64,000 bases of DNA from Lepraria neglecta (Eukaryota > Ascomycota > Lecanoromycetes > Lecanorales > Stereocaulaceae): NCBI GenBank assembly GCA_033220425.1, contig CM065648.1, forward strand, positions 1,674,001-1,738,000. Reading direction: 5' to 3'. How positions within the stretch are numbered: position 1 is the stretch's first letter; each line of letters starts with the position of its first letter. This document shows, in pieces, positions 15,785 through 64,000 of this stretch. The notes beneath the pieces are model-generated. The model saw only the letters and a program-made list of their open reading frames with translations, made no database searches and had not been told where the DNA came from. The translations under genes were made by a program, and so were the position numbers.

Positions 15785-18700
15785 ATTAATGCGTTATTCC
15801 CCAAATAACAATTATGTTCCGCCTAATACTATACTTACATTATTGTACTAGTGAATATTGATAGACAGCGGACTATAGCGATGATAGACAGCGGGGCTAC
15901 AGGAAATTTCATCTCAAGGAACTTGGTAGACTCGAGCGGCCTACTAACCCGAAAGAAGAAATTGTCCTATAAGCTACGCCTAGCCGACGGGTTAGTATTC
16001 TTAACAGGAAAAGTAGAGGAGGAAATACGCTCCCTACTAGTAATAATTTAGTAATACCACGAGGAAATTACATTCGATATAGTTGGGATGGCTACTTATA
16101 ATATCATTTTAGGAATACCTTAGTTAAATAAATATAACCTAGAAATCAACTGGAAGATAAAAGAACTTAAATTCGGATAATCTAGAAATATTACTAGTAT
16201 TAGACCTATTAGTTAATAGTAGATAATAATAGATAAGAGAAAGAACTAAAGACCGGTCGAAGTATATATTACTTTATTCTTAAATAATAAGAGTGACTTC
16301 TAAGAGAGAAGGCTCGACTCCTTAGTTACTAGTAAGGGTTAGCAGGATATTAAAGAGAGAGCTATTAAAGGAAAAGACGAACCTTCTACGATCCCTCGGG
16401 AATATAAACGGTAGGTATACCTATTCAAGGAAGAGACGAGTATAAAAGCGTTGCCTAAGTACCAGCTATAGGATTATAAGATTAAACTCGAACCTGGCAA
16501 GGCGCTAATATTTAGACCTATCTATACATTATTAGAAAAGGAACTTACTATACTTCGCGGGTATATCGAAGAGAACCTTAAGAAAGGATTTATTCGGGAA
16601 TCTAAATCACTAGTAGGTTATCCAATCCTCTTCGCGCCGAAGAAGGACGGAAGCTTAAGACTATACGTCGACTATCGAAAGTTGAACAATATCACTATCA
16701 AAAATCGGTATCCTTTACTAAATATCAGCGAGCTGCAGGACCGGCTTGGCAAGGTAAAGATATTCACGAAACTAGATCTTAGAGGCGTATATAATCTAAT
16801 TCGGATGAAAGAAGGCGAAGAATAGAAAACTACCTTCCGAACCAGATATAGCTACTACAAGTATTTAGTAATACCGTTTAGACTTACTAACGTACTAGTA
16901 ACCTGCTAAGCACTTGTTAATAACGTCGTATAAGCACACTTAGATCGAATAGCGATAGCGTACCTCGACGATATCTTGATTTACTCTAAGAAAAAGGAAG
17001 AATACGTTAAGTATATATAGGACGTTATCGAATACCTATTGTAAGCGGGACTTCTCCTTAAACCAGAAAAGTGCGAGTTTTACAGGGACTCTATTAAGTT
17101 CCTAGGATTTATAGTTAGTATAAAAGGCATTAGTATAAGCCTAGAAAAGATCAAAGCTATAGCGGAATAGCCTATACTACAGGACGTCAAAGCAGTACAA
17201 AGTTTCTTAGGATTTGCTAACTTTAACAGGAAGTTTATTAAAGGCTACTTAAAGAAAGTACTTCTACTTACGGATATTACTAAGAAAGATATTAGATTTA
17301 TATGGGGGTAAGAATAATAAAGGTCGTTTGATACGTTGAAAAAAGCATGTACAGATCCTCTAGTACTCTGTACCTTTTAAGCTAACGAACCGGCTCGTAT
17401 TAAAATAGATACCTCGGATCTCGTAATCGGAGTATGCCTTTATTAAATGAAGGACCAAAAGTAGCATCTAGTTGCCTACTTTTTACGAAAAATGTTAGTA
17501 GTAGAATAAAACTATGATATATACGATAAAGAACTACTTGCCGTAGTATGTATACTTCAAAATTGGAGAGTGTACGCAGAAAGCTACTCGGACTTAACCA
17601 TCTTTACGGATTATAAGAATCTTCTTAATTTTATAATAACGAAAGAGTTGAATAGAAGATAAGTTAGATAGTTAGAACTACTTAGATAATATAAGTTCAA
17701 GATAACCTATACCCTAGGAAAAGATAATAGTCGAGTAGATACGCTTAGCAGGCGATTGGACTATATAGAAGAAAAGAATGTTATAGAACGACCAATCCTG
17801 AAACGAGAAGCCGATAGATCATTAGTACCGTACTAGGTATTAGTAATGACCCTTCGTATATCAGGACCTGATACGACTAACAGGATCGTAAAGGCCTACG
17901 ATAACGATATATTTGCAACAAAGCTACGACAGGATCAACCGGATTCAGTATTACTCAGATATCAGGAAAAAACTTACTTACCTGATATATACGTTGAAGA
18001 AGTAATCAGGGATTACTATAATAACCTATTATAAGGTCACCCTAGAGTATCTAAGATAATAGAACTCCTAGGAAGAGGATATATAGCGCCGAAACTTCGG
18101 ACACGCGTTAAACAATATATTAAGGAATGTATTTAATACCAGCAGAACAAGTCTGTACAATATGCTAAGTACGGGCAAATTCAATTTGCGCCTATACCGG
18201 AGTTACTATAGGATGATATTATAATAGACTTTATAGTCAAACTGCTACCTTCGAAGGATCCAGCTATATAGGATATCTTTAACTTAATTATAGTTATTAT
18301 AGACAAACTGACGAAGTATACAATCATAATACTATTCAAGGAGACATATAAAGCAGATTAATTAGCCTTTATACTACTCGACAAGCTGATAAGAGATTAT
18401 AGTATACCTAAATCGATAATATCCGATAGAGACAAGTTATTTACTTCCAACTATTAGAAAACGCTGATCGGAGCGATTAGAACTAAACTTCGGATATTAA
18501 CTATATACTATCTACAGACTAATAGACAAACGGAACGTGCAAACCAAATAATAGAAGTATACCTAAGGTACTATATGAACCTGAAACAAGATAATTAGGT
18601 TTTATTACTTCTAATGGTATAACTGGCGTATAACGACAAAAGATCAGATACGATAGGTCTAATACCGTTCTTTGCCAACTATAGAAAGAACGCGAATATA

Positions 18701-21599: not shown

Positions 21600-24500
21600 G
21601 CATAAGGAGATTAATATATTATTCCCCAAACAACAATTATATTCCGCCTAATACTATACTTATATTATTATACTAGTGAATATTAATAGATAGCGGACTG
21701 TAGCGATAATAGATAGCGGAGCTACAGGAAATTTTATCTCAAGGAACTTAGTGGACTTAAGCGGCCTACTAACCCGAAAGAAGAAATTATCTTACGAGCT
21801 ACGCCTGGCCGACAGGTTAGTATTCTTAACAGGAAAAGTAGAGGAGGAAATACTCTCCCTACTAGTAATAATTCAGTAATACTATAAGGAGATTATATTC
21901 GACATAGTTAGGATAGCTACTTATAATATCATTTTAGGAATACCTTGGTTAAATAAATATAACCTAGAAATTAACTAGAAGATAAAAGTACTTAAATTCG
22001 GATGATCTAGAGACGTTACTAGTATTAGACCTATTAGTCGATAGTAGACGATAATAGATAAGAGAAAGAACCGAAGACCGGTCGAAGTATATATTACTTT
22101 ATTCTTAAATAATAAGAGCGACTTCTAGGAGAGAAGGCTCGACTCCTTAGTTACTAGTAAAGGTTAGTAGGATACTAAAGAGAGAGCTATTAAAGGGAAG
22201 GACGAACCTTCTACTATCCCTCGGGAATATAAACAGTAGGTATACCTATTCGAGGAAGAGACAAGCGCAAAAGCATTACCTAAGCACTAGCTATAGGATT
22301 ATAAGATCGAACTCGAACCTAGTAAGGCGCTAACATTTAGACCTATCTATATATTATCGGAAAAGGAACTTACTATACTTCGCGGCTATATCGATAAGAA
22401 TCTTAAGAAAGGATTTATTCAGGAATCTAAATTACTAGCAGGTTATCTAATCCTCTTCGCGCTGAAGAAGGACGGAAGTCTAAGGCTATACGTCGACTAT
22501 CGGAAGTTGAACGATATTACTATCAAGAATCGTTACCCTTTACCAAATATCAGCGAGCTACAGGATCGGCTCAGCAAGGCAAAGATATTTACGAAACTAG
22601 ATCTCAGGGGCGTATATAATCTAATCTGGATGAAAGAAGGTAAAGAATGGAAAACTGCCTTCCGGACTAGATATAGCTACTACGAGTATCTAGTGATACC
22701 GTTTGGACTTACCAACGCACTAGCAACCTACCAAGCACTTATTAATAACGTTATACGAGCATACTTAGATCGAACAGCGATAGCGTACCTCGACGACATC
22801 TTGATTTACTCTGAAAACAAGGAAGAACACGTTAAGTATATATAGGACATTATCGAATACCTGTCGCAAGCGGGACTTCTCCTTAAACCGGAAAAGTGCG
22901 AATTTTACAGGGACTCTATCGAGTTCCTAGGATTTGTAGTTAGTACAAAAGGTATTAGTATAAGCCTAGAAAAGATCAAAGCTATAGCGGAATGGTCTAT
23001 ACCACAGGACGTCAAAGTAGTACAAAGTTTCTTAGGATTTGCTAACTTTAATAGGAAGTTTATCGAGGGCTACTCAAAGAAAGCGCTTCTACTTATAGAT
23101 ATTACTAAAAAGGATATTAGATTTATATAGGGACAAGAATAATAGAAGTTATTTAATACGTTAAAAAAAGCATGTACGGATCTACTAGTACTCTGTACCT
23201 TTTAAGCTAACGAACCGGCTCGTATCGAAATAGACGCCTCGGATCTCGTAATAGGAGTGTACCTTTATTAAATGAAGGACTAAAAGTAGTATCCTATTAC
23301 CTACTTTTTACGAAAGATATTAGTAGTAGAACAAAACTACGATATATACGATAAAGAACTACTTGCCGTAGTATATATACTTTAAAATTGGAGAGTATAC
23401 GCAGAAAGCTACTCGGACCTAACCATCTTTACAGATTATAAGAATCTTCTTAACTTTATAACAACGAAAGAGTTAAATAGAAGATAAGTTAGATAGTTAG
23501 AACTACTCGGATAATATAAGTTCAAGATAACCTATACCCTAGGGAAAGATAATAGTCGAGTAGATACGCTTAGTAGGCGATCGGACTATATAGAAGAAAA
23601 GAACGTTACGGAACGACCAATCCTAAAGCGAGAAGCCGATAGATCATTGGTGCCACATCAGGTATTGGCAATGACCCTTCGTATATTAGGACCTAATATA
23701 ACTAACAGGATTATAAAGGCCTATAGCAACGATGTATTTGCAACAAAGCTACGACAGGATTAACTAGACTTAGTATTGCTTGAATATCAGGAAAAAACTT
23801 ACTTACCTAATGTATACGTTGAAGAAGTGATCAGGGATCACTACGATGACCTATTACAAGGTTACCCTAGAGTATCTAAGATAATAGAACTCCTAGGACG
23901 AGGATACGCAGCGCTGAAGCTTCGGACGCGCGTTAAACAATATATTAAAGAATGTATTCAATACCAGCAGAACAAGTCTGCATAATACGCCAAGTACGGG
24001 CAAATTCAGTTTACGCCTATACTAGAATCACTATAGGATAATATTATAATGGACTTTATAGTTAAACTACCACCTTCGAAGGATCCAGCTACGCAGGATA
24101 TCTTTGATTCAATTATGGTCATTATAGATAAACTAACGAAGTATACAATTATAATACCGTTCAAGGAGATATACAAAGCGGATCAATTAGCCTTTATACT
24201 ACTCGACAAGTTGATAAGGGATTATAGTATACCTAAGTCGATAATATCCGATAGAGACAAGCTATTCACTTCTAACTATTAGAGAACGCTAATCGCAGCG
24301 ATTGGAACTAAACTTCGGATATTAACGGTATACTATCTATAGACTAATAGATAGATAGAGCGTGCAAATCAAATAATAGAAGTATACTTAAGGTACTACG
24401 TGAACCTAAAACAAGATAATTAGGTTTCACTACTTCTAATAGTACAATTAGCGTATAACGACAAAAGGTTAGCCACGACAGGCCTAATACCATTCTTTAC

Positions 24501-34021: not shown

Positions 34022-37000
34022 GTTATTAATAACGAGCTCCTTATAAGCTAGACAGGAGTTACTCTAGAAGCGGAGAAGCCGAAGTTATCAGACCTTACCG
34101 TTTCCCTTACTTTCTAGTTGAACGCCTTTTCAGCGAACAACGTCGATGCGTACGAAAAGAATATTAATATATTATACTATCAAGTCATTCTTTCGATCGT
34201 TGATATATATAATCCGCTAATAGACGTTCTCAGGGGTAGTAAACCTTATATAAGACGTGGTCGTTCTAATAGTAGGGCTCTCTCAGTCGATCCCTCGGAA
34301 GTTAACTCGTCAGAAGTCGACGCGAAGGAAGTTCCTTTTATATTTCTACTTGCTTAGAAGTATCCCTCGTCTCTCGCGGAGGCTTTAGCTATATTTACTA
34401 AGGGAGTCAGATTTTACAGAGACTCTGAGTATTTCGAAGTCTGGAAGGTCGACTAAATAGAAGACGTAGACGAGCTTCCAAGCCCTTGGATTTCACGAGC
34501 AGCTCGAGAAAAGGCACGTTAGTATTTATTAACCTTGTAGTCCTTACTAGTTCTCTCTCTATCTGGTTCTCTTTCAGCTAGTCCGTTAGCCCCGAGGAGG
34601 TTTCTTCTACTAGGTAAGACCTATACTATAGATGATATTATAAGGCGGGTTTTATTCCCGAACGGATCAACTATAATACCTATAGGAGGGAATAATGGCG
34701 GACAGAGCAGTTTATCAGGAGGACTAGGCTTCGGAAATTTCAACCAGAGGGGAGGTCAGCCTCCGTTTACTCCCCAGTAATATAGAGCTCCTTAGAATCT
34801 AGGGAACCAATAATAAGGAAATGGCGAGATACCGCAGGCCCCTCCTGGCGTCGATGCTGCACTGTATAACGCCATGATTCAAGCCATACGAGCTACGGTG
34901 CCAGAAGCGGTAAACAATACTCTGGCAAGTTACAATCTACATGAGTTCCGAGGTCCAGTTGGACCCCTAGGACTACTAGGCCCTACCGGAGAACCTGGAG
35001 AAGCTGGTTAATCGAATCAATCTGGTGGTAGAGCTTTCCGTGCCCATGAACTTGGTTTCTTTCACCCGGATTATCCAGAGTCTTAGGGTACTAGTGATAT
35101 CGTACCGAATCCTAGAGAATTGATCTTCCGAGAAGTCTATACTTTCTGTAGTCGTACCTAAGACTTCGCTATTATAAAAGGCGAAGAGGTAGTAAGAAAG
35201 AATCTGAATAGTTGCTTCCGCGGGGCGGCAGTAAACTGGTAGCTTAAGATTCTTTCCCAGGACGAGAAGGATGCTATAATATAACTACTAACCGGCCTCT
35301 AACGCCAAATTGCCAGGTTGCAGGATTATTTCAAGATTACAATATCTACGGCTTTGGAAGAACTAAGCCGATAGTCCTATACTTCGAGGGATACAAGTGA
35401 ACGAAATGACCCGTCGGTATACGTCTAGAACGTATCCAAATATGTAGTGCAGGCCGGGATCACCGAAGAATATGCACAGGCTACATAGGCTTGGAATCAC
35501 CTAGATATAGAATTCCAGGCTACGATTCCTCCTCCGACTACGAATACGACCCTCCGAGAATTCATCGAGCAGCTAAAGGGTAGGAAGGAAATATGGTATC
35601 GAATACAGTTACAGAAGGAGTAACAGTACAAAGACACTTAGAAGGAAATCAGGGAACGTGAAAAGGATAGGGATAATTAACAGGAACGTTCTAGTAAGGA
35701 GAAATTCTTGCCGCCGGGACGGCAAGGTAGGTACTCTTTATTACCGTATCGTCTATAGTAATATTAGCAGCGGCCTTTTCAGCAGAACAGACCGATAATA
35801 GGAGGATTTCCTCCGCAATACGGATATCAGCAGCTAGGACAGCCTTTTTATTCCAATCTATTTCAAGCGCCTTATACTTAGCCAGCTTATATTACTAATA
35901 TATAGACAACGTAACCACCTCAGCAGGCTTCCAGTCAAGCCGCAGGCCAGAACCAGCCTCTAAGAAACGCGCTTCCTCCTCCGAAGTAACCCCTTATGAT
36001 TACCGCCGGAAACGTACAGCCAAATTAAAACCTTTACGCCGCGAGTCGACAGAATCAGAACTATGGGAACCGTGGTAGACGCCCGTACTACCCTCCGAGG
36101 CAGTATGGCTATAGTAATCGAAGCTACGGCAATCAGAATTACGGTCTACCAGCACTCCCAATACAGCCAGTCTACTTTGGTCAGGAAGTCTACTATAATA
36201 ACTCCTAGGATGAAAACTACGGGTATGGAGCAGACGGAGCTACCGAAGGATATCACGCAGGCACGGATTATAATCCTTAAGATCCCTATAGCTACCATAC
36301 AGGCACTGATGAGAACTTCTATAACGCCCAAGAATCAGTCCCTCCCGAGGAAAAGAAGGAGTTAGAAGACGTCGATATAGGATTCGTGGCAGTCTTATAC
36401 CATATCTCTACTGGCAAGATAGGGCATCGTTCCGTATATCGTTACTATAAGGCAGATTTTCCTTCAAATAATCTGCTTCATATACACGTCAAGGCGAAAA
36501 CATACTGCCGCACTAAGGCTTCTGCGAAGAAGTCGGTTAATCCTATACCTACCAAAGAGGCACTAGTACTATTAATTGACCTAGTATTATAACCAACGAA
36601 GGTAATCAATAAAGGCGAGGTGATCGAATCCGCAGTACCCCGGTTATCTCTCAATAGCCTGTCTTTCCGTTTATAGCACTACCTCACTAGATAAATTGCC
36701 TTATCCCCGAATACTCCTCGTAAGCCGGGATGTCTTAATACAGGATGCCTAATGACCATAATCGATCGCACTTTTCTGAAAAGGCGAATTCCTACCTTTG
36801 AAATGAAGGTACATGAGTTACCTATTACGCTGCGCGGGATCGGCTCGAATAGACATACTATAGCCGAATGGACTACCCTCGACTTCTATATGGACGGAGA
36901 ATCAGAAGTAGGAGACTCGGTTACGATCAAAATCACCCGAGATTTCTATATTGTGGATAATTTAAAGGCAAACATGCTCATCGGAATGGACGTCCTAGGA

Positions 37001-57420: not shown

Positions 57421-57913
57421 TATTGCGTAGAATATAGATATTATTTAGGGGTTAATATATTAATCTCCTTATAGCTACCTCTACTAAGAGGGATTACTCT
57501 TTTCTCTATAGAAATCTTTCTTCTAATAATAGATTATAAGGACTTTCGGAGTAATTCCGTACTTATAGCCAATTAGAATAGCCCTTTAGAGCTGCATTTC
57601 CTCTCTCGGCTAGCGCCTTTAACTACTAAAAGTTGAATATACTACGCACTTCTTCGTAGTACTTCCCCGCGCTATATACGTCGTATAATATCAAGATAAT
57701 TTCACAAGTTTTGGAGTTAATCATTAGCTTACTTGCGTATCAAGAATTTTTAGAATCGGCCTATTTACGTAATAGTTATAAGTAAAAGAAGCGTTTTCGC
57801 CATGTTTTACAGGTAGCGCAAGCTTAGTTGAATACGCACCGCAACTTCTTCGCAGCAATGCCCCGCGCCATATACGCCATATGATATCGAGAGGATTTCA
57901 TAAGTTTTGGAAC

Positions 57914-58066
57914 TAATATGGGGTTTTCCTGTATATTCATAATAGTAGTATTTGTGGTAAGATTGTTGATTATTCTATAGAGTGGGAGCGTCTATATGAA
58001 AGCTTATAGGGCTGAATGCTGACTAAGCTGAAGTCTGCGGTGTAGACCAAATCCAGCCCTATATCA
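57914..58066 (-). repeat. Left (3') LTR of element H
   Basis: It is 153 bp. It differs from the right LTR by a few transitions, all in the RIP direction and all in this copy (for example TAATATGGGG against TGATACGGGG). Confidence 0.92.
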
Positions 58067-58076
58067 GAATGCCCAT

Positions 58077-58107
58077 AAAAGAAGAAGAAGGCGACGTCCC
58101 CGTCGTC
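58077..58107. repeat. Hairpin motif 1 of element H
   Basis: A purine tract AAAAGAAGAAGAAGG is followed by a 7-bp stem with loop TCCC (GGCGACG TCCC CGTCGTC, 58090-58107). On the coding strand the loop is GGGA, a GNRA-type tetraloop, followed by a T-rich stretch. It lies next to the 3' LTR. Confidence 0.65.
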
Positions 58108-58125
58108 TATAGCCATTGCAGAGCT

Positions 58126-59035
58126 TTAACCAAGCTTATATCCACGTATCCAACCAATCATATTGTCTGTATATAAGTCCGAGCTCTTGTAGGGCGACTC
58201 TTCTTGGTCCTGTAGGGCCGTATCGAAATTTGGCGGCAGTAAGGTAGCACAGCGAGCTGCTTTGGGAGGACGCGTAATACGCTCGGAGGTTATTATGACG
58301 TGTATCGGTAAGGGGCGCATGCTTATTGGTCGATTAGGAAGGTGTATATATCGTATAGTGCTGAGTCGTATATTGTATATTGAAAATTTAGAAGTCTTGG
58401 CAAAGACCTGGCTTGGGCCAAATATTTGAAAGGAGCTATTTGCGAGTTCAGATACTGATTTAGCGCCGTGCTAGGCTCAATCCAGTAAGGTGTCGAATTG
58501 ACAATTTTGATGTATGATGTTCTGAAGGATTGAAAGTTGCAAATGGTTTGTCGGCTAAGGAGTAATAGCTGCTGGTGCTGCTGGAGTAAATGTACGCCTT
58601 TGTGGATAGTAGCAGTAAGCTTGTCGATGAGCTTGCTAATGCTTTAGTTGTCGATATAGAGAAGCTCGCGCTGAGATAAGGTGATTTGCAAGTTGTAAAA
58701 GCTGGAAATTTGCTAGTGGTCTATGCAGTTGTCAACCTTCCGCTAAGCATAGCTTGTGGCCTCGGTATGCTTGATTGCCATTGGTCAGCAGCCTCTACTG
58801 TAGTATGCAGTATAGGTCCGTTCCGGCTGTATGACATATGTCAATCTATCGACATCTCCAATCAACGTCGCTCCTAGCCAAGCTCGGTTGCTTGCTAGGA
58901 TATAGCAACGTTCGCTTGTCTTATCGACTCGGTTGCTTGGTAGTGTTAATGTGGACGCTCGGTTGACTCCCTGTATAGGGGCATATAGTATTGCTATGCT
59001 GCATATAGCACTGTATATACTACTACCCTTATTGC
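58126..59035 (-). pseudogene. Third coding module of element H, degraded
   Basis: Minus-strand frames here contain a segment LNQYLNSQIAPFKYLAQARS (about 58455-58395). Its spacing and composition recall LKQYLNAKTVPIDYFSLSQ of the first module (about 61815). A 64-codon open stretch with no ATG lies at 58126-58320. No domain was recognised and the reading frame changes at least once. I treat it as a damaged paralogous module, with low certainty. Confidence 0.35.
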
Positions 59036-59053
59036 CGGTAAAAGAAAAGAGAA

Positions 59054-59071
59054 GACAGCGTCCCCGTCGTT
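59054..59071. repeat. Hairpin motif 2 of element H
   Basis: GACAGCG TCCC CGTCGTT has one mismatch in the stem and is preceded by the purine tract CCGGTAAAAGAAAAGAG. The tract and loop match the other two copies while the stem bases differ. Confidence 0.6.
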
Positions 59072-59470
59072 ATAGGTGAGAAGTTGTATAAGTTGTATTT
59101 GCATGAATGGAATTTTTTTTATTGAAAATTTTAGTGTCAGTTAGAAATCTCGCAGGGAATCCGGTTGCTAGTGGAGACAAGTAAAGCATAGCGTATGCCG
59201 GTTTGACTGGCCAAATTGTATGTACAGCCAATAGTAGGGCCTGGATATTGAGCCATTTGGCTAAGGCGTTGGCATGTAATGCTTGTTGATCTGAAATTTG
59301 GAAGACTGCTTGCAAATCGAAATTTTGGACGTCGGAAGCTCGGTGAGAAAGTAGCCGTGTCGGCAATGATTGCGGTGAGCGGAGCTTCTGATTGGCTGGC
59401 GGAGCGGAGTCGCAATTGAGAATTCTGCCTTAAAGTCTGCCCGCAAAAGAAGTTGCATTTGGCGGCGACG
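59072..59470 (-). CDS. Small unidentified ORFs downstream of the BIR-C2H2 gene
   Basis: Three overlapping minus-strand frames are open here, the longest being 98 codons (59070-59366). It includes LAKWLNIQALLLAVHTIW and has a helical, hydrophobic centre. It might be a short module related to the other two modules that precede a hairpin in element H. The overlap of frames makes any single choice uncertain. Confidence 0.3.
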
Positions 59471-59484
59471 TTATCATAGCGACG

Positions 59485-61494
59485 TCATTGCTTGCAGTGT
59501 GCCGATAGCGCTTGGACGGCGGTTTTGTATCCTGTAGACCATGTCTCGTATGCTTGTGGAGTCCCTATGCTCTTACTTTTGCAATTTGGCTTTCCTCGCT
59601 GAATTGCATGTGCGGAATTGCGGCGGCGAGATGGGTGGTAAGCAGGTCCCTCGGGGCTTGAAAAGTATGCTCGGGGGAAGCCATGAGACTGGTTGCCAAG
59701 GGGAGCATGTTTCATAATTGATCTAGGGTGTTGTTGTTGTTGTTGCAATTTCGGTGGCTGAGGCAAAATGCAGATATCTAAGGTCTTGGTATTCGACTTT
59801 CTGGACCGAACGGAGTCGATTGCCGATGTTTCCAGGTCTGACATATGTTTGTCTTGGCGAGCTAGCTGGATTTGGTTTAGCTCCGTGTCTGACTGCTTGC
59901 ACTGCTTGCTTATAGCTGTTGCGGAGGATTTGCTTGCAGGCTTGTCTGTAGCTGGGGCAGATTTGGCTGAGGGTCCCCATGGAAATTTGGCTGAGGTACG
60001 CTTGCCAAATCGTCGAAATAAGTCATGGATGGTGAGATAGCTAGATACGGGTGTAGCTTTGTAGCTAGCTGATGAGGGTGCTAGAGCTCTTAGGGGTGCG
60101 TATCGCATATAGAGATCTTCGACTGTGAGGTACGCCTTCTTAGCTTTGTAAGCTGGCGGCGGAGGCGAGACTGCTCGATATGTCGGAGGTGGCGTAGCCG
60201 GTGGAGTCGCTGGCGCTGTTGGTATTGCTGACACTGTAGGCCTGGAAGAAGATGTCTCTACTGAATGAGATATCCTCGCTGGGAGATATAGCGACAAAGT
60301 AGCTGTAAGAGTAGCTGAGGTCTTGCTGACTGGTAAAGCATATAATTCCTGTAGGGGTGTCTGTACTGAAACAAGCGTTGATGCTGCTGATCTGGGAGTA
60401 GCTAGTCTCTGCGGAGATTCGCTTGATAAGTCGCATTTGCTTGACTGTATGCGGTTATTCCTGCTATATTTGTATTCGGTACGCAAATGCTGGTGTAGCT
60501 GATTCTTGGAAGCAAATGTCTGCTCACATAGCTTGTATCTGGGCTTGTTGCATGTGCTATTCTGCGCATGACATATGAGGCGTGCAATGGATGAGAAGGC
60601 TGCATTGCATAGCTTGCATATATGGTAATCGAGAGGTCCTGCTTGCTTAGCTGGTAGCAGGTCTGCCTGTAAGGATGTATGTGAAGTTGCTTGTAGAGAG
60701 GCTTCCTGAGAAGTTAACTGGGAAGCTGCTTGTAAAGACACTTGTTGGGTAGTCGGCTGAAGAGCTTACTGAGTGAGTAGCTGAGAAGCTCGTTGGGGAG
60801 ATTTCGGAGGAAGGGGTTGCGAAGCCGCAAGTGGCGTTGTCTGAGCAGCTTGCTTAGCAGCTGATTGCGTAGGTGGCTGAGAGGCTATATGCTTTTGCTG
60901 TTGCGCACATTGCTTGCCCGGGGGTTCTTGCTTATCTCGAGTAAGGGACGACACTTGAGAAGGTGGCTGATTAGCTGAGGAAGCTGATTTGCTGAGCTCA
61001 CGAGATGTCTCTAGCGTTGTAGTTTTAGCGGGTGTCTTAGTAATCGATTGAGAAGCTTGTCGAAAAGCTGATTGGATAAGTTGCTAAGTAAGCTTATGCC
61101 GTTGTTCATTCGTATGCGGGTTGGTAGAATAGGGTAATACTGTATGTGCTTGTTTGAGAGCCTGCTTCATCCTCGCGACTGCTTTCTGAGCTAGGTCCGG
61201 CTCAGGGAGAAAGCGTTGAATTGCTTGAGGAGTTGATAATATTGGCTGCGCTGGATAGGCTTTGACGAATGGACAATCTGGCGAATAACGTTGATGCTCA
61301 TCTTCAGGATCAGCTTCTTTGGTCCAGTCGCTAAGGAGTAATCTACAGTCCTTGCATCCTACCAAATCTGGATATTGACTACCAATATATGTGAATCCTT
61401 CTGTAGCAAGATCATAAGTGTATAGCTGATGCGGTAGATCAGTCGGCAATGCATAGAAGGTATAAAGGCGCTCGAAGAATTCCCGTGTTTGCAT
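59485..61494 (-). pseudogene. BIR domain plus C2H2 zinc-finger protein of element H
   Basis: One minus-strand frame runs from ATG at 61494 to TGA at 59487-59485 (669 codons). Only two stops occur, TAG at 61086 and TAA at 60768, both Gln codons changed by C-to-T. Residues about 9-77 form a BIR domain: R-x2-TF at the start, GF in the middle, PDLVGC, then zinc ligands C47, C50, H67, C74 with spacing C-x2-C-x16-H-x6-C. W57 and the ADPEDEH segment also fit. A Gln/Ser/Pro/Ala-rich linker follows to about 285. Finger 1 uses C293, C296, H309, C315. Finger 2 has C323 and H336 kept, while the outer Cys and His are Tyr through RIP-type change. The rest is Pro/Ser-rich with a Gln run near 59735. A BIR domain in a retroelement is unexpected. 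Role unknown; a Gag-like role is possible for the fingers. Confidence 0.82.
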
Positions 61495-61555
61495 ATTGTA
61501 TACTGCAGAGTTTTGTATACGGGATGCAGTTAGGGTGCCGGCAAAAGAAAAGGAA

Positions 61556-61573
61556 TGACACGTCCCTGTGTCA
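61556..61573. repeat. Hairpin motif 3 of element H
   Basis: TGACACG TCCC TGTGTCA has a 7-bp stem and the same TCCC loop, preceded by GCCGGCAAAAGAAAAGG. It lies between the first module (stop at 61602) and the ATG of the BIR-C2H2 gene (61494). Confidence 0.65.
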
Positions 61574-61601
61574 AGGCTGTAGAGAGGTAGTGCGGAGAGC
61601 T

Positions 61602-62330
61602 TTATAGCTCGTGTGGTAGCTGGATCGACGGCTCAATAAAGAGATCGACGCAGTTGCTTGCTAAAGTGTATAGGGCGTTATATTGAGAGTTTGGTGTGTT
61701 GAGGTCCGGTGGAGAGGTCTGAGCATACAGTCGAAAAGTCGAGTCTTGACATGAAATCTGACTGAGCGAAAAGTAGTCGATTGGCACTGTCTTTGCGTTC
61801 AGATACTGCTTGAGTACTAAGCTAGCCTGATCTAGTAAAGCTTGCTGTCGTTGCTGAGCAAGCTTCGCAAGGTGCTTCCGCAGAGTAAATATAGACCGTA
61901 TATGTCCTTCTCTTTCTCGTGGTGCAGCACGCTGAGCTACTCGTAGATGAGGCTTTCGGTAGTAGTGGTTTGAAATGTAGGTGAAGGGCTTGGAATGAGT
62001 GCTCGGGGTAAGTGGGTGTTGAGCAGTTGGTGTTGTAGATACCCTGGGGCGTGCAGGGTCAACGATATGATTATATAAGCTGGCCTATTCGTGGATAGGG
62101 CTTTCGGGGTCGCTGAATCAACTGGTATAGTTGGTTTCTTCGTAGGAGTGGCGGTTGTAGAGTTCTGCTGGCGGGTAGCTTGCGAGCTTTCCGAAGGATA
62201 GAGGATGCGGGGTTAACGAAGGATGTAGGATATAGGGGTCAATGAGAAGGTAGAAGAAGCTTTCGGGGTCGAGGAGTCGATTAGTACGCTTAGTCTAGGC
62301 GTATAATTCGTAGAATTGCTGCTGGCGGGT
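61602..62330 (-). pseudogene. First coding module of element H (DPES-repeat protein)
   Basis: The minus-strand frame ends at TGA or TAA near 61602 after IEPSIQLPHEL. The C-terminal half is a long helix (LRKHLAKLAQQRQQALL) followed by LKQYLNAKTVPIDYFSLSQ. The N-terminal half contains two in-frame repeats of about 53 residues around an R-F/L-x-DPES motif (gaccccgaaagc at 62100-62111 and 62259-62270). A third repeat at 62408 is out of frame by one indel. Two or three RIP-type stops interrupt it. No family was recognised. It is the first gene after the 5' LTR, the place where gag would be. Confidence 0.5.
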
Positions 62331-62480
62331 AGCTTGCGAGCTTTCCGAAGGATAGAGGATACGGGGTTAACGAGAAGGGAGAAGAAGCTGGTTTATTCGT
62401 AGGTAAGGCTTTCGGGGTCGAGGAATCGACTGGTACGCTTGTTTTTTGCGTATGAATTGCAGAGTTACTACTAGCGGAGG
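62095..62480. repeat. Tandem repeats of about 150-159 bp in element H
   Basis: Three units each contain GCTTTCGGGGTCG (62100, 62259, 62408). Two also share GCTGGCGGGTAGCTTGCGAG with the following GGATAGAGGAT block (62168 and 62321). They encode the DPES repeats on the minus strand. Confidence 0.8.
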
Positions 62481-62593
62481 ACGTGGTTCTTCTGAATGGT
62501 TCTCGTGTTGAATGGTTTGGTAGCGCTGTAGCTTACCAGGGGGTTGCTGGGCTTAAAGCAACTGGTTGAGCATGTATGGCGATATACTCTGGA

Positions 62594-62620
62594 TCGTGTA
62601 TCCGGCCGTTGCTACCATTA
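62594..62620 (-). promoter_or_regulatory. Primer-binding site of element H
   Basis: On the minus strand TGGTAGCAACGGCCGG lies three bases inside the 5' LTR. The first 13 bases equal the site in element I, so both elements should use the same tRNA primer. Confidence 0.6.
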
Positions 62621-62773
62621 TGATACGGGGTTTTCCTGTATGTTCATGATAGTAGTATTTGTGGTAAGATTGTTGATTGTTCTATGGAGTGGGAGCGTCT
62701 ATATGAAAGCTTATAGGGCTGAATGCTGACTAAGCTGAAGTCTGCGGTGTAGACCAAATCCAGCCCTATATCA
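62621..62773 (-). repeat. Right (5') LTR of element H
   Basis: It is 153 bp, from TGATACGGGG to CTATATCA on the plus strand, and ends directly before the target copy GGAAC. Confidence 0.93.
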
Positions 62774-63100
62774 GGAACCAAGCATACGCTTTCCAACGCC
62801 GTTCGAATTTTGAAATTCGGTAAATATTTGGCTAAGGAAAGCTCAAAAAACATGTTTTTGCCTGCGGAGTTCCCTGAAGCTACCACCGCAGTCACCCCCG
62901 AAGTGCCTCCGGAGCACTCAAATATTTAACCCTTAATAACTTTCGATATATTAGGGTTAGGGCTTATCTTTATATACAAAAAATATACTATAAATAGAGG
63001 GCTTTCAAATTAGGCTTAAACTTTCTAAATCGAGTATAAAATAAGCGAGATATAGTAGTTTTTACGGTAATCTTCTGTGAAGATTACGGGCACTAACTTG

Positions 63101-63413: not shown

Positions 63414-64000
63414 TCTTTCTTCTAATAATAGATTATAAGGGAATTCGGAGTAATCCGGTACTTGTAGCCAATTAGTATAGACCTTTGGTTCTCTTCCCGA
63501 GATCCCTCTTTCGGTTAGCGCCCCTATCAAAAATTGAAAATTTATATCGCAACTTCTACGCAGTACTTCCCCGCGCTATATACGTTATATGATATCGAGA
63601 TAATTTCATAAGTTTTGGAGTCAATCATAAGCTTGCTTGCGTATCAAGAATTTTTAGAATCGGCCTATTTACGTAATAGTTATAAGTAAAAGAAGCGTTT
63701 TCGCTATGTTTTGCTTGCGCACCGTAACTTCTTCGCAGGACTTCCCCGCGCCACATACATCATATAATATCGAGATGATTTCATAAGTTTTGGAACCAAG
63801 TATGCGCTTTCTAACACCGTCAAAATTTTCAAAATCGGTCTACTTACACAATAGTTATGAGCAAAAGAAGCGTTTTCACTATGTTTTGTAGGCAGTACGA
63901 GCTCAGTAGCAAATGCCAAGCATTGAGCTTGGCGCCTCCGGACCCTGGAACATTAAAAGTTGAATGCGCACCGCAACTTCTTCGCAGTAATGCCCCGCGC
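63414..64000 (+). mobile_element. Helitron-like non-autonomous repeat, copy e (cut by window)
   Basis: It starts A|TCTTTCTTCTAATAATAG and follows copies b-d, including the GCCAAGC...GCTTGGC hairpin region near 63917-63936. Its 3' end is outside the window. Confidence 0.65.

Follow-up and report, generated by a model that had tools for sequence, protein, structure and literature searches.

Non-autonomous retroelements that encode little else than Gag have been described before. Gag-only TR-GAG elements are known in plants, as reported in the accessible part of PMC8704663, and the corresponding part of PMC12542154 describes the paired elements RLG_Kyoko and RLG_Beelzebufo from A. mediterranea, a lichen alga, together with the criteria by which an autonomous and a non-autonomous element are paired, i.e., a common LTR, a common primer site and a common polypurine tract. 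LTR elements that bear an additional domain of host type are regarded as uncommon in PMC9289625, which reports orchid Ty3/Gypsy elements carrying an AlkB domain.

In this work a stretch of 64,000 nucleotides from Lepraria neglecta (contig CM065648.1, positions 1,674,001 to 1,738,000), referred to as the window, was analyzed around a frame which joins a BIR domain to zinc fingers inside an LTR element. Fungal BIR proteins are few. It is probable, in our judgment, that the dead element copy in the window represents a non-autonomous, Gag-only LTR family which was moved by the enzymes of a chromovirus and in which Gag had gained a BIR. The argument draws on what the DNA sequence itself establishes, namely the architecture of the frame, the LTRs with their target-site duplication, the lack of a pol match, the LTR and primer-site match to a chromovirus, the similarity to a Gag profile and the exchange of a cassette between copies. 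Gag-only elements and extra host-type domains were already known. Among the matches listed (titles and starts of abstracts) the open-access literature gave no report of a BIR joined to Gag or carried by a fungal retroelement, and the word "BIR" is absent from the main texts of PMC9289625, PMC10799480, PMC3248453 and PMC12542154.

The window element and its chromovirus relative

The element spans positions 57914-62773 (4.9 kb) and has the direct LTRs, the TG...CA ends and the short target duplication of an LTR retrotransposon. Its outer features, in the sense of the open reading frame, are:

57914..58066, minus strand: 3' LTR, 153 bp, TGATA...TATTA
62621..62773, minus strand: 5' LTR, 153 bp, TGATATAGGG...CCCCGTATCA, TGATA...TATCA
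57909..57913: left target-site duplication, GGAAC
62774..62778: right target-site duplication, GGAAC
62606..62620, minus strand: presumed primer-binding-site stretch beside the 5' LTR, TAATGGTAGCAACGG
62056..62477: 5' leader with internal duplications, repeat families D6, D9 and D10

The two LTRs form a 97% repeat pair, whose six differences (five C>T changes, each before an A, and one G>A change) include the 3' LTR end that was gapped by the aligner. Since these differences are of the repeat-induced point mutation type they do not date the insertion. At the presumed primer site TGG begins three bases past the 5' LTR, and no clear polypurine tract was seen beside the 3' LTR. In a six-frame scan for a pol inside the element (with X at stops) neither reverse transcriptase nor integrase was matched; the profile matches obtained were the BIR and weak fingers, the other two listed having E values of 0.38 and 0.41 on the opposite strand. 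The reverse transcriptase, RNase H, integrase and chromodomain of an autonomous Ty3/Gypsy chromovirus were all without a match in the element. The first-pass annotation, made from the letters of the window, had called it a short-LTR retroelement, a description which agrees with the 153-bp LTR pair, the GGAAC duplication and the absence of a pol match. The insertion lies in a repeat with a unit spacing of approximately 175-196 bases (57632-57916 and 63534-64000). Elsewhere on the plus strand of the window there are reverse-transcriptase matches at 16637-17116 and 22465-22938 and a Gag-like match at 35036-35593, which presumably belong to other decayed Ty3-type elements.

The genome searched comprises 42.0 Mb in 11 contigs, with the window element on contig C3 and its type designated family A. 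LTR and internal matches of family A occur together at four places, which are the window itself, C1:3221743-3226928, C1:3594872-3599760 and C4:940134-945098; the family is also present as single LTRs and fragments, with at least 30 LTR matches and at least 36 internal matches. Relatives of the family A LTR (77-82% identity) flank 7-kb intervals on C6 and C8. The sense strand of the C6 interval matched RNase H (5.5e-11), the Tf2-1 SH3 domain (1.7e-8) and the chromodomain (4.3e-7), together with RVT_1 (1.7e-5, under the cut-off) and the integrase zinc domain (1.5e-5, just under the cut-off), and on the strength of these matches it is classed as a decayed Ty3/Gypsy chromovirus. The C8 chromovirus is identical to TAATGGTAGCAACGG over all 15 bases, and the C6 copy differs from it by one G>A change. 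LTR and primer site are hence shared with a relative of autonomous type, the pol matches being those of C6 and both LTR-sharing relatives, C6 and C8, being decayed. By the criteria given in the accessible part of PMC12542154, the polypurine tract excepted, the sequences of the window element and the chromovirus qualify them as an autonomous/non-autonomous pair, and the window copy was most likely mobilized by the enzymes of a Ty3/Gypsy chromovirus sharing its LTR and primer-site stretch.

The BIR–zinc-finger frame and an intact relative

The internal part of the element is occupied by a broken frame with the following features:

59485..61494, minus strand: BIR–Q/S/P linker–zinc-finger–tail frame, broken, with its ATG at 61494 and its end at 59485
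61261..61470, minus strand: BIR domain (PF00653, E 4.4e-13), found at the same place in the genome-wide PF00653 search
60550..60618, minus strand: zinc finger 1, C2HC, from pattern and frame translation
60472..60537, minus strand: zinc finger 2, C2HC in relatives, with the pattern broken in the window copy
60085..60215, minus strand: conserved tail motif SPPPPxY ... YLTxxDLYxRYAP, its DNA being 82% identical to that of the family B copy on C7 (see below)

The single 669-codon frame with two stops and the exact BIR signature noted in the first-pass annotation were both borne out: the in-frame stops fall at residues 137 and 243 of the minus-strand frame, splitting it into a 136-aa BIR piece, a 105-aa linker piece and a remainder, and the pattern C-x2-C-x16-H-x6-C is exact. 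The window copy is dead. The profile search and structure prediction proposed alongside that annotation also point to a BIR. The Pfam profile covers residues 9-78 with 50 bits against a cut-off of 22.9, and in a PDB sequence search the best 60 of 91 matches were all BIR-containing (IAP-type) proteins, with NAIP (9.3e-14) and DIAP1 (2.2e-7) as best matches. The AlphaFold model of the 136-aa piece is of only fair quality, having a mean pLDDT of 65 and values of 72-88 for ten-residue blocks within residues 31-80; all of the 50 structural matches listed for it are BIR domains and no other fold is among them, at low Z scores (up to 4.6). No RING was matched in the window frame, in the six frames of the element or in the family B ORF, and only a single BIR is present, so that the element protein shows neither the multiple BIRs nor the BIR with RING that mark IAP/Bir1 proteins. 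A survivin-type reading of histones is not claimed for the window BIR, which reads KEADP at the position where NAIP reads EGDDP. Comparison of the BIR part with a protein collection returned no match at E <= 0.001 among 98 candidates sharing short exact words with it, and thus the nearest source of the window BIR was not found.

The zinc fingers were described as C2H2 in the first-pass annotation and are actually C2HC. The patterns C-x2-C-x12-H-x5-C and C-x2-C-x12-H-x4-C fit 40 and 42 of 58 relatives, respectively, and the C2H2 pattern tried, C-x2-C-x12-H-x3..5-H, fits none of the 58. For comparison, the CCHC knuckle of the Gag nucleocapsid is C-x2-C-x4-H-x4-C. In the window copy the fingers stay under the Pfam cut-offs (best 21.5 bits versus 27). 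The relatives, at least 58 in the protein database, were collected from two overlapping searches which yielded 42 and 53, the latter having scored the 8000 best candidates. The named hosts are Lepraria finkii (two proteins; Lecanoromycetes) and Gongronella butleri (BIR only), and of these two the complete architecture is seen in L. finkii, a lichen fungus, alone. Three of the proteins (P0042, P0057 and P0058) are BIR proteins in which neither a Gag nor a finger motif was seen. Including these three the exact BIR signature is found in 12 of 58 relatives, and without them in 9 of 55; in the remainder the ligand set is shifted, missing or cut off, some lacking the N terminus. When 37 members were scanned (E up to 1), a C2H2-type finger profile was matched in all of them and the BIR in 26. 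In the BIR type of the family A copy on C4 (L002) the distance from the Trp to the last His is some 12 residues longer, the addition lying near a position at which the host Bir1 gene seems by eye to contain an intron; P0039 has the same type.

The genome-wide search for intact copies, also proposed with the first-pass annotation, found one intact relative, in a second family (family B). On C7 a single uninterrupted ORF of 473 aa (4712266-4713684, minus strand) contains a BIR (8.9e-16) and one finger model over the Pfam cut-off (28.4 versus 27), and its protein has the order BIR, Gag-like segment, two C2HC fingers and conserved tail, so that BIR and fingers do lie in one frame in an intact copy. 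The LTRs of this copy are about 177 bp long with the target-site duplication ACAAG. The single difference counted falls on a base outside the LTR pair, and the lack of any difference inside it indicates a recent insertion; the polypurine stretch of the family is AGAAGAGGGGG. Family B is unrelated to family A in its LTRs; the DNA of the two is 82% identical over 131 bp of the tail and 74% identical over 90 bp of the fingers. Six further places hold most of the family B protein, all of them with stops or shifts, and there are additional fragments:

C3:3763624, C7:791734, C8:4013756, C8:4137199, C2:5477941 and C3:1548312: broken family B-type places
C3:592297 and C5:1508789-1509540: family B-type fragments

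At least 40 family B LTR matches were found, none near C3:1548312, and this relative may belong to another LTR family. A search for a helper of family B through its LTR scored 40 out of 54 candidates and yielded 40 LTR matches, none of which could be paired with a pol in the expected orientation. A reverse transcriptase at C5:3384231-3392182 lies, on the strand opposite to expectation, between two LTR matches of family B that are separated by 7.9 kb, and this arrangement may be a nested insertion.

Gag likeness, constraint and exchange between copies

The segment which follows the BIR in family B reads DIGFLDPSLQ...FCDRIE...ILELLPKCLRGEALxWF. The Pfam route to Gag proved too weak for use, since Retrotrans_gag was matched in just two of the 37 members scanned (best E 0.034) and in neither of two open Ty3-type Gag pieces, and profile comparison was substituted. 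The Gag profile built from this genome has four rows, two of which are X-masked decayed copies (the C6 and C8 chromovirus) and two the open, putative Gag pieces; the latter were found with the C8 row (E 4.8e-8 and 1.2e-17). With hhalign, A5 matched the four-row profile with a probability of 95.5 and an E value of 1.4e-8 over 68 columns, and A2 matched a single row of it with a probability of 94.0 (E 1.5e-7); the controls gave at most 0.31 for 40 column shuffles of the profile and 0.06 for the reversed profile. The match covers the N-terminal part of Gag only, with the second capsid half unmatched. When the 58 proteins were compared by tblastn with the chromovirus pieces, four weak matches were obtained (E 0.016-0.083), three falling within the L027 Gag region, and these are taken as no more than a hint. 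Viral contigs scanned with A2 gave 32 pattern hits and no relative. The Gag-like segment was not seen by eye in the window frame, and family A appears to be without it; compared with an element having a single Gag ORF in the manner of TR-GAG, family B has the N-terminal Gag-like part and the window frame has none by eye. The first-pass annotation had offered cell-death control, chromosome attachment and a Gag-like structural role for the protein, and the last is the best supported of the three because the family B relative has a segment resembling Ty3 Gag between its BIR and fingers.

Constraint was estimated from the comparison of the C7 copy with C3:1548312 (404 codons used, three stop codons skipped, 79 codons in the BIR part), in which dN/dS was 0.55 for the BIR, 0.19 for the Gag segment, 0.16 for the fingers, 0.51 for the tail and 0.38 overall. 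The other four pairs were set aside as two of them look mosaic and two are too close, and the claim of constraint therefore comes from one pair; in those four the regional values ran from 0.05 to 5.17 with one undefined, being 0.05, 1.18, 1.45 and 0.41 in the Gag segment, where values above 1 come from few changes, and 0.53 to 5.17 in the BIR. This one pair suggests that the Gag segment and the fingers are more constrained than the BIR.

Comparison of the four family A copies located a region which departs from its surroundings:

61065..61510, minus strand: exchanged BIR cassette, with 48-57% identity to the other three copies between flanks of 87-94%

In the BIR stretch (61510-61190) the three other copies are 95% identical to one another at the DNA level and share 56-57% with the window copy, versus 87-90% in the 5' flank and 93-94% in the fingers. 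In the adjoining stretch (61064-60955) the window copy is 89% identical to the C4 copy and 51-52% identical to the C1 copies, C4 and C1 likewise being 51-52% identical. The two segments occur in three arrangements, which favors exchange over point mutation, and on this pattern of identities the BIR region of the window copy is taken to be an exchanged cassette. Family B looks similar in the mosaicism of its copies, judging from C7:791734, with a Gag-segment dS of 0.04 and saturated finger differences, and from C2:5477941, with a dS of 0.02 in the BIR and 0.55 in the Gag segment. The likely route by which the BIR cassette is swapped between copies, and the simplest, is template switching in reverse transcription. 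Cassette exchange of this kind shows that protein domains are shuffled by non-autonomous elements.

Origin of the BIR and comparison with known systems

The BIR profile search of the genome found 13 places, 12 of them over the cut-off and element copies included; the statement in the first-pass annotation that fungi normally keep a single Bir1-type gene does not fit this genome. The host Bir1-like gene at C2:900949-901423 has two BIRs. A BIR (1.1e-10) in a separate 189-aa ORF at C2:2970413-2970613 is without a finger match in that ORF. A further BIR at C4:278540-278713, found once in the genome, is followed by a finger-like stretch with one stop between them and preceded, by eye, by a decayed second BIR-like stretch, and is a possible host-side relative. 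In a tree of 26 BIRs over 73 columns the family B BIRs form one clade (99/97) and the two family A types are paired (89/88). A tree constrained to join the BIRs of both families was worse by 8.5 log units (p-AU 0.039); the single clade, a grouping tested once the tree was known, is rejected only marginally. In the phylogeny against Bir1 that the first-pass annotation had proposed, the placement of the family A BIRs with BIR2 of Bir1 (p-AU 0.26) and that of family B with BIR1 (0.55) were not rejected, and most branches separating the element BIRs from Bir1 lack support. Of the overall interpretation offered from the letters, the genuine BIR, its common frame with zinc fingers and its place in an LTR element stand, and the finger type and the single-Bir1 statement do not.

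These data bear on three other explanations. The BIRs of families A and B may have been acquired separately onto a common finger-tail body, which is a possibility of some weight, if the less probable course. The cost of the joint clade is in its favor, as is the 82% DNA identity of the tails over 131 bp when set against BIR proteins that are 38% identical, but the alignment has 73 columns, few branches are supported, the grouping was tested after inspection of the tree, and fast evolution could mimic a separate origin. We regard as unlikely that a host BIR–zinc-finger gene, derived from Bir1 or resembling the BIR at C4:278540, was taken up to act on the host, for instance by suppressing cell death, with the Gag likeness being incidental. 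The genome does contain both the two-BIR gene and the lone C4 BIR with its finger-like stretch, EHQRxSPDC is common to the window BIR and BIR2 of Bir1 (by eye), and neither placement with Bir1 is rejected by the tree; however, the Gag match lies far above all 40 shuffles, the single usable pair shows the Gag segment to be more strongly constrained than the BIR, and no such fingers were noticed in the approximately 300 Bir1 codons translated.

It is more improbable still that the BIR has no selected role and is a fast-decaying N-terminal passenger which spread along with the fingers. Its dN/dS of 0.55 versus 0.16-0.19 for its neighbors in one pair, its values of 0.53 to 5.17 in the other four and the zinc-ligand changes in many members are what such a passenger would produce; yet 0.55 is below 1 over 79 codons, dN may be inflated by RIP-like changes, the exact zinc signature is kept in 9 of 55 relatives, with part of the rest lacking the N terminus, and the profile is matched in 26 of the 37 members scanned. 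Against the Gag reading itself stand the two of 37 Retrotrans_gag matches, the restriction of the profile match to 68 N-terminal columns, the altered ligands in many BIRs, the unrelated LTRs of the two families and the failure to find a helper for family B. Moreover, family A appears to lack the Gag segment, so that its protein may not function as Gag.

Under the preferred reading of a Gag that gained a BIR, the RNA of the element would be translated into a BIR–Gag-like–finger protein, whose C2HC fingers would bind element RNA in place of the CCHC knuckle of Gag and whose Gag segment would join or attract helper particles. The BIR would serve as an adapter to a host protein, giving access to chromosomes as in survivin/Bir1 or protection from death signaling; in family A the protein has a BIR and fingers and appears to lack the Gag segment. 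A more speculative extension, which we offer tentatively and consider rather doubtful, is that the BIR fused to Gag is an exchangeable host-docking cassette, swapped as the host target escapes in an arms race. Particles or RNA would be tied to a putative docking target, either mitotic chromatin, with the chromosomal passenger machinery as the link, or else a death protease. An extra host-type domain points to a host pathway with which the element must deal, and a BIR on Gag would, if the reading is true, connect fungal chromosome segregation or cell death with a retroelement. What the BIR binds can be tested with the intact family B protein.

Among the described systems TR-GAG elements resemble the present ones in their LTR pair, lack of pol and inferred helper and, as far as family B is concerned, in a single ORF with a Gag-like segment. 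The accessible part of PMC8704663 does not mention a BIR, and the elements reported here differ in being fungal, in having a C2HC finger with C2H2 spacing and in including a family that appears to lack the Gag segment. With RLG_Kyoko and RLG_Beelzebufo they share the combination of a Gag-only derivative and an autonomous element with a common LTR and primer site; that pair, for which no extra domain is mentioned in the available portion of PMC12542154, is centromere-specific, whereas the copies here are found on many contigs. The orchid AlkB elements are alike in that a host-type domain became fixed in a Ty3/Gypsy lineage, and they differ, as described in PMC9289625, in their length of 25 kb, in carrying an additional ORF and in the domain being a demethylase. 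Bir1, survivin and the IAPs share the BIR zinc signature; Bir1, as presented in the accessible part of PMC3158057, is a host gene with two BIRs, whereas the protein described here, which is encoded by a mobile element, has one BIR besides its C2HC fingers and, in the case of family B, also a segment resembling Gag.
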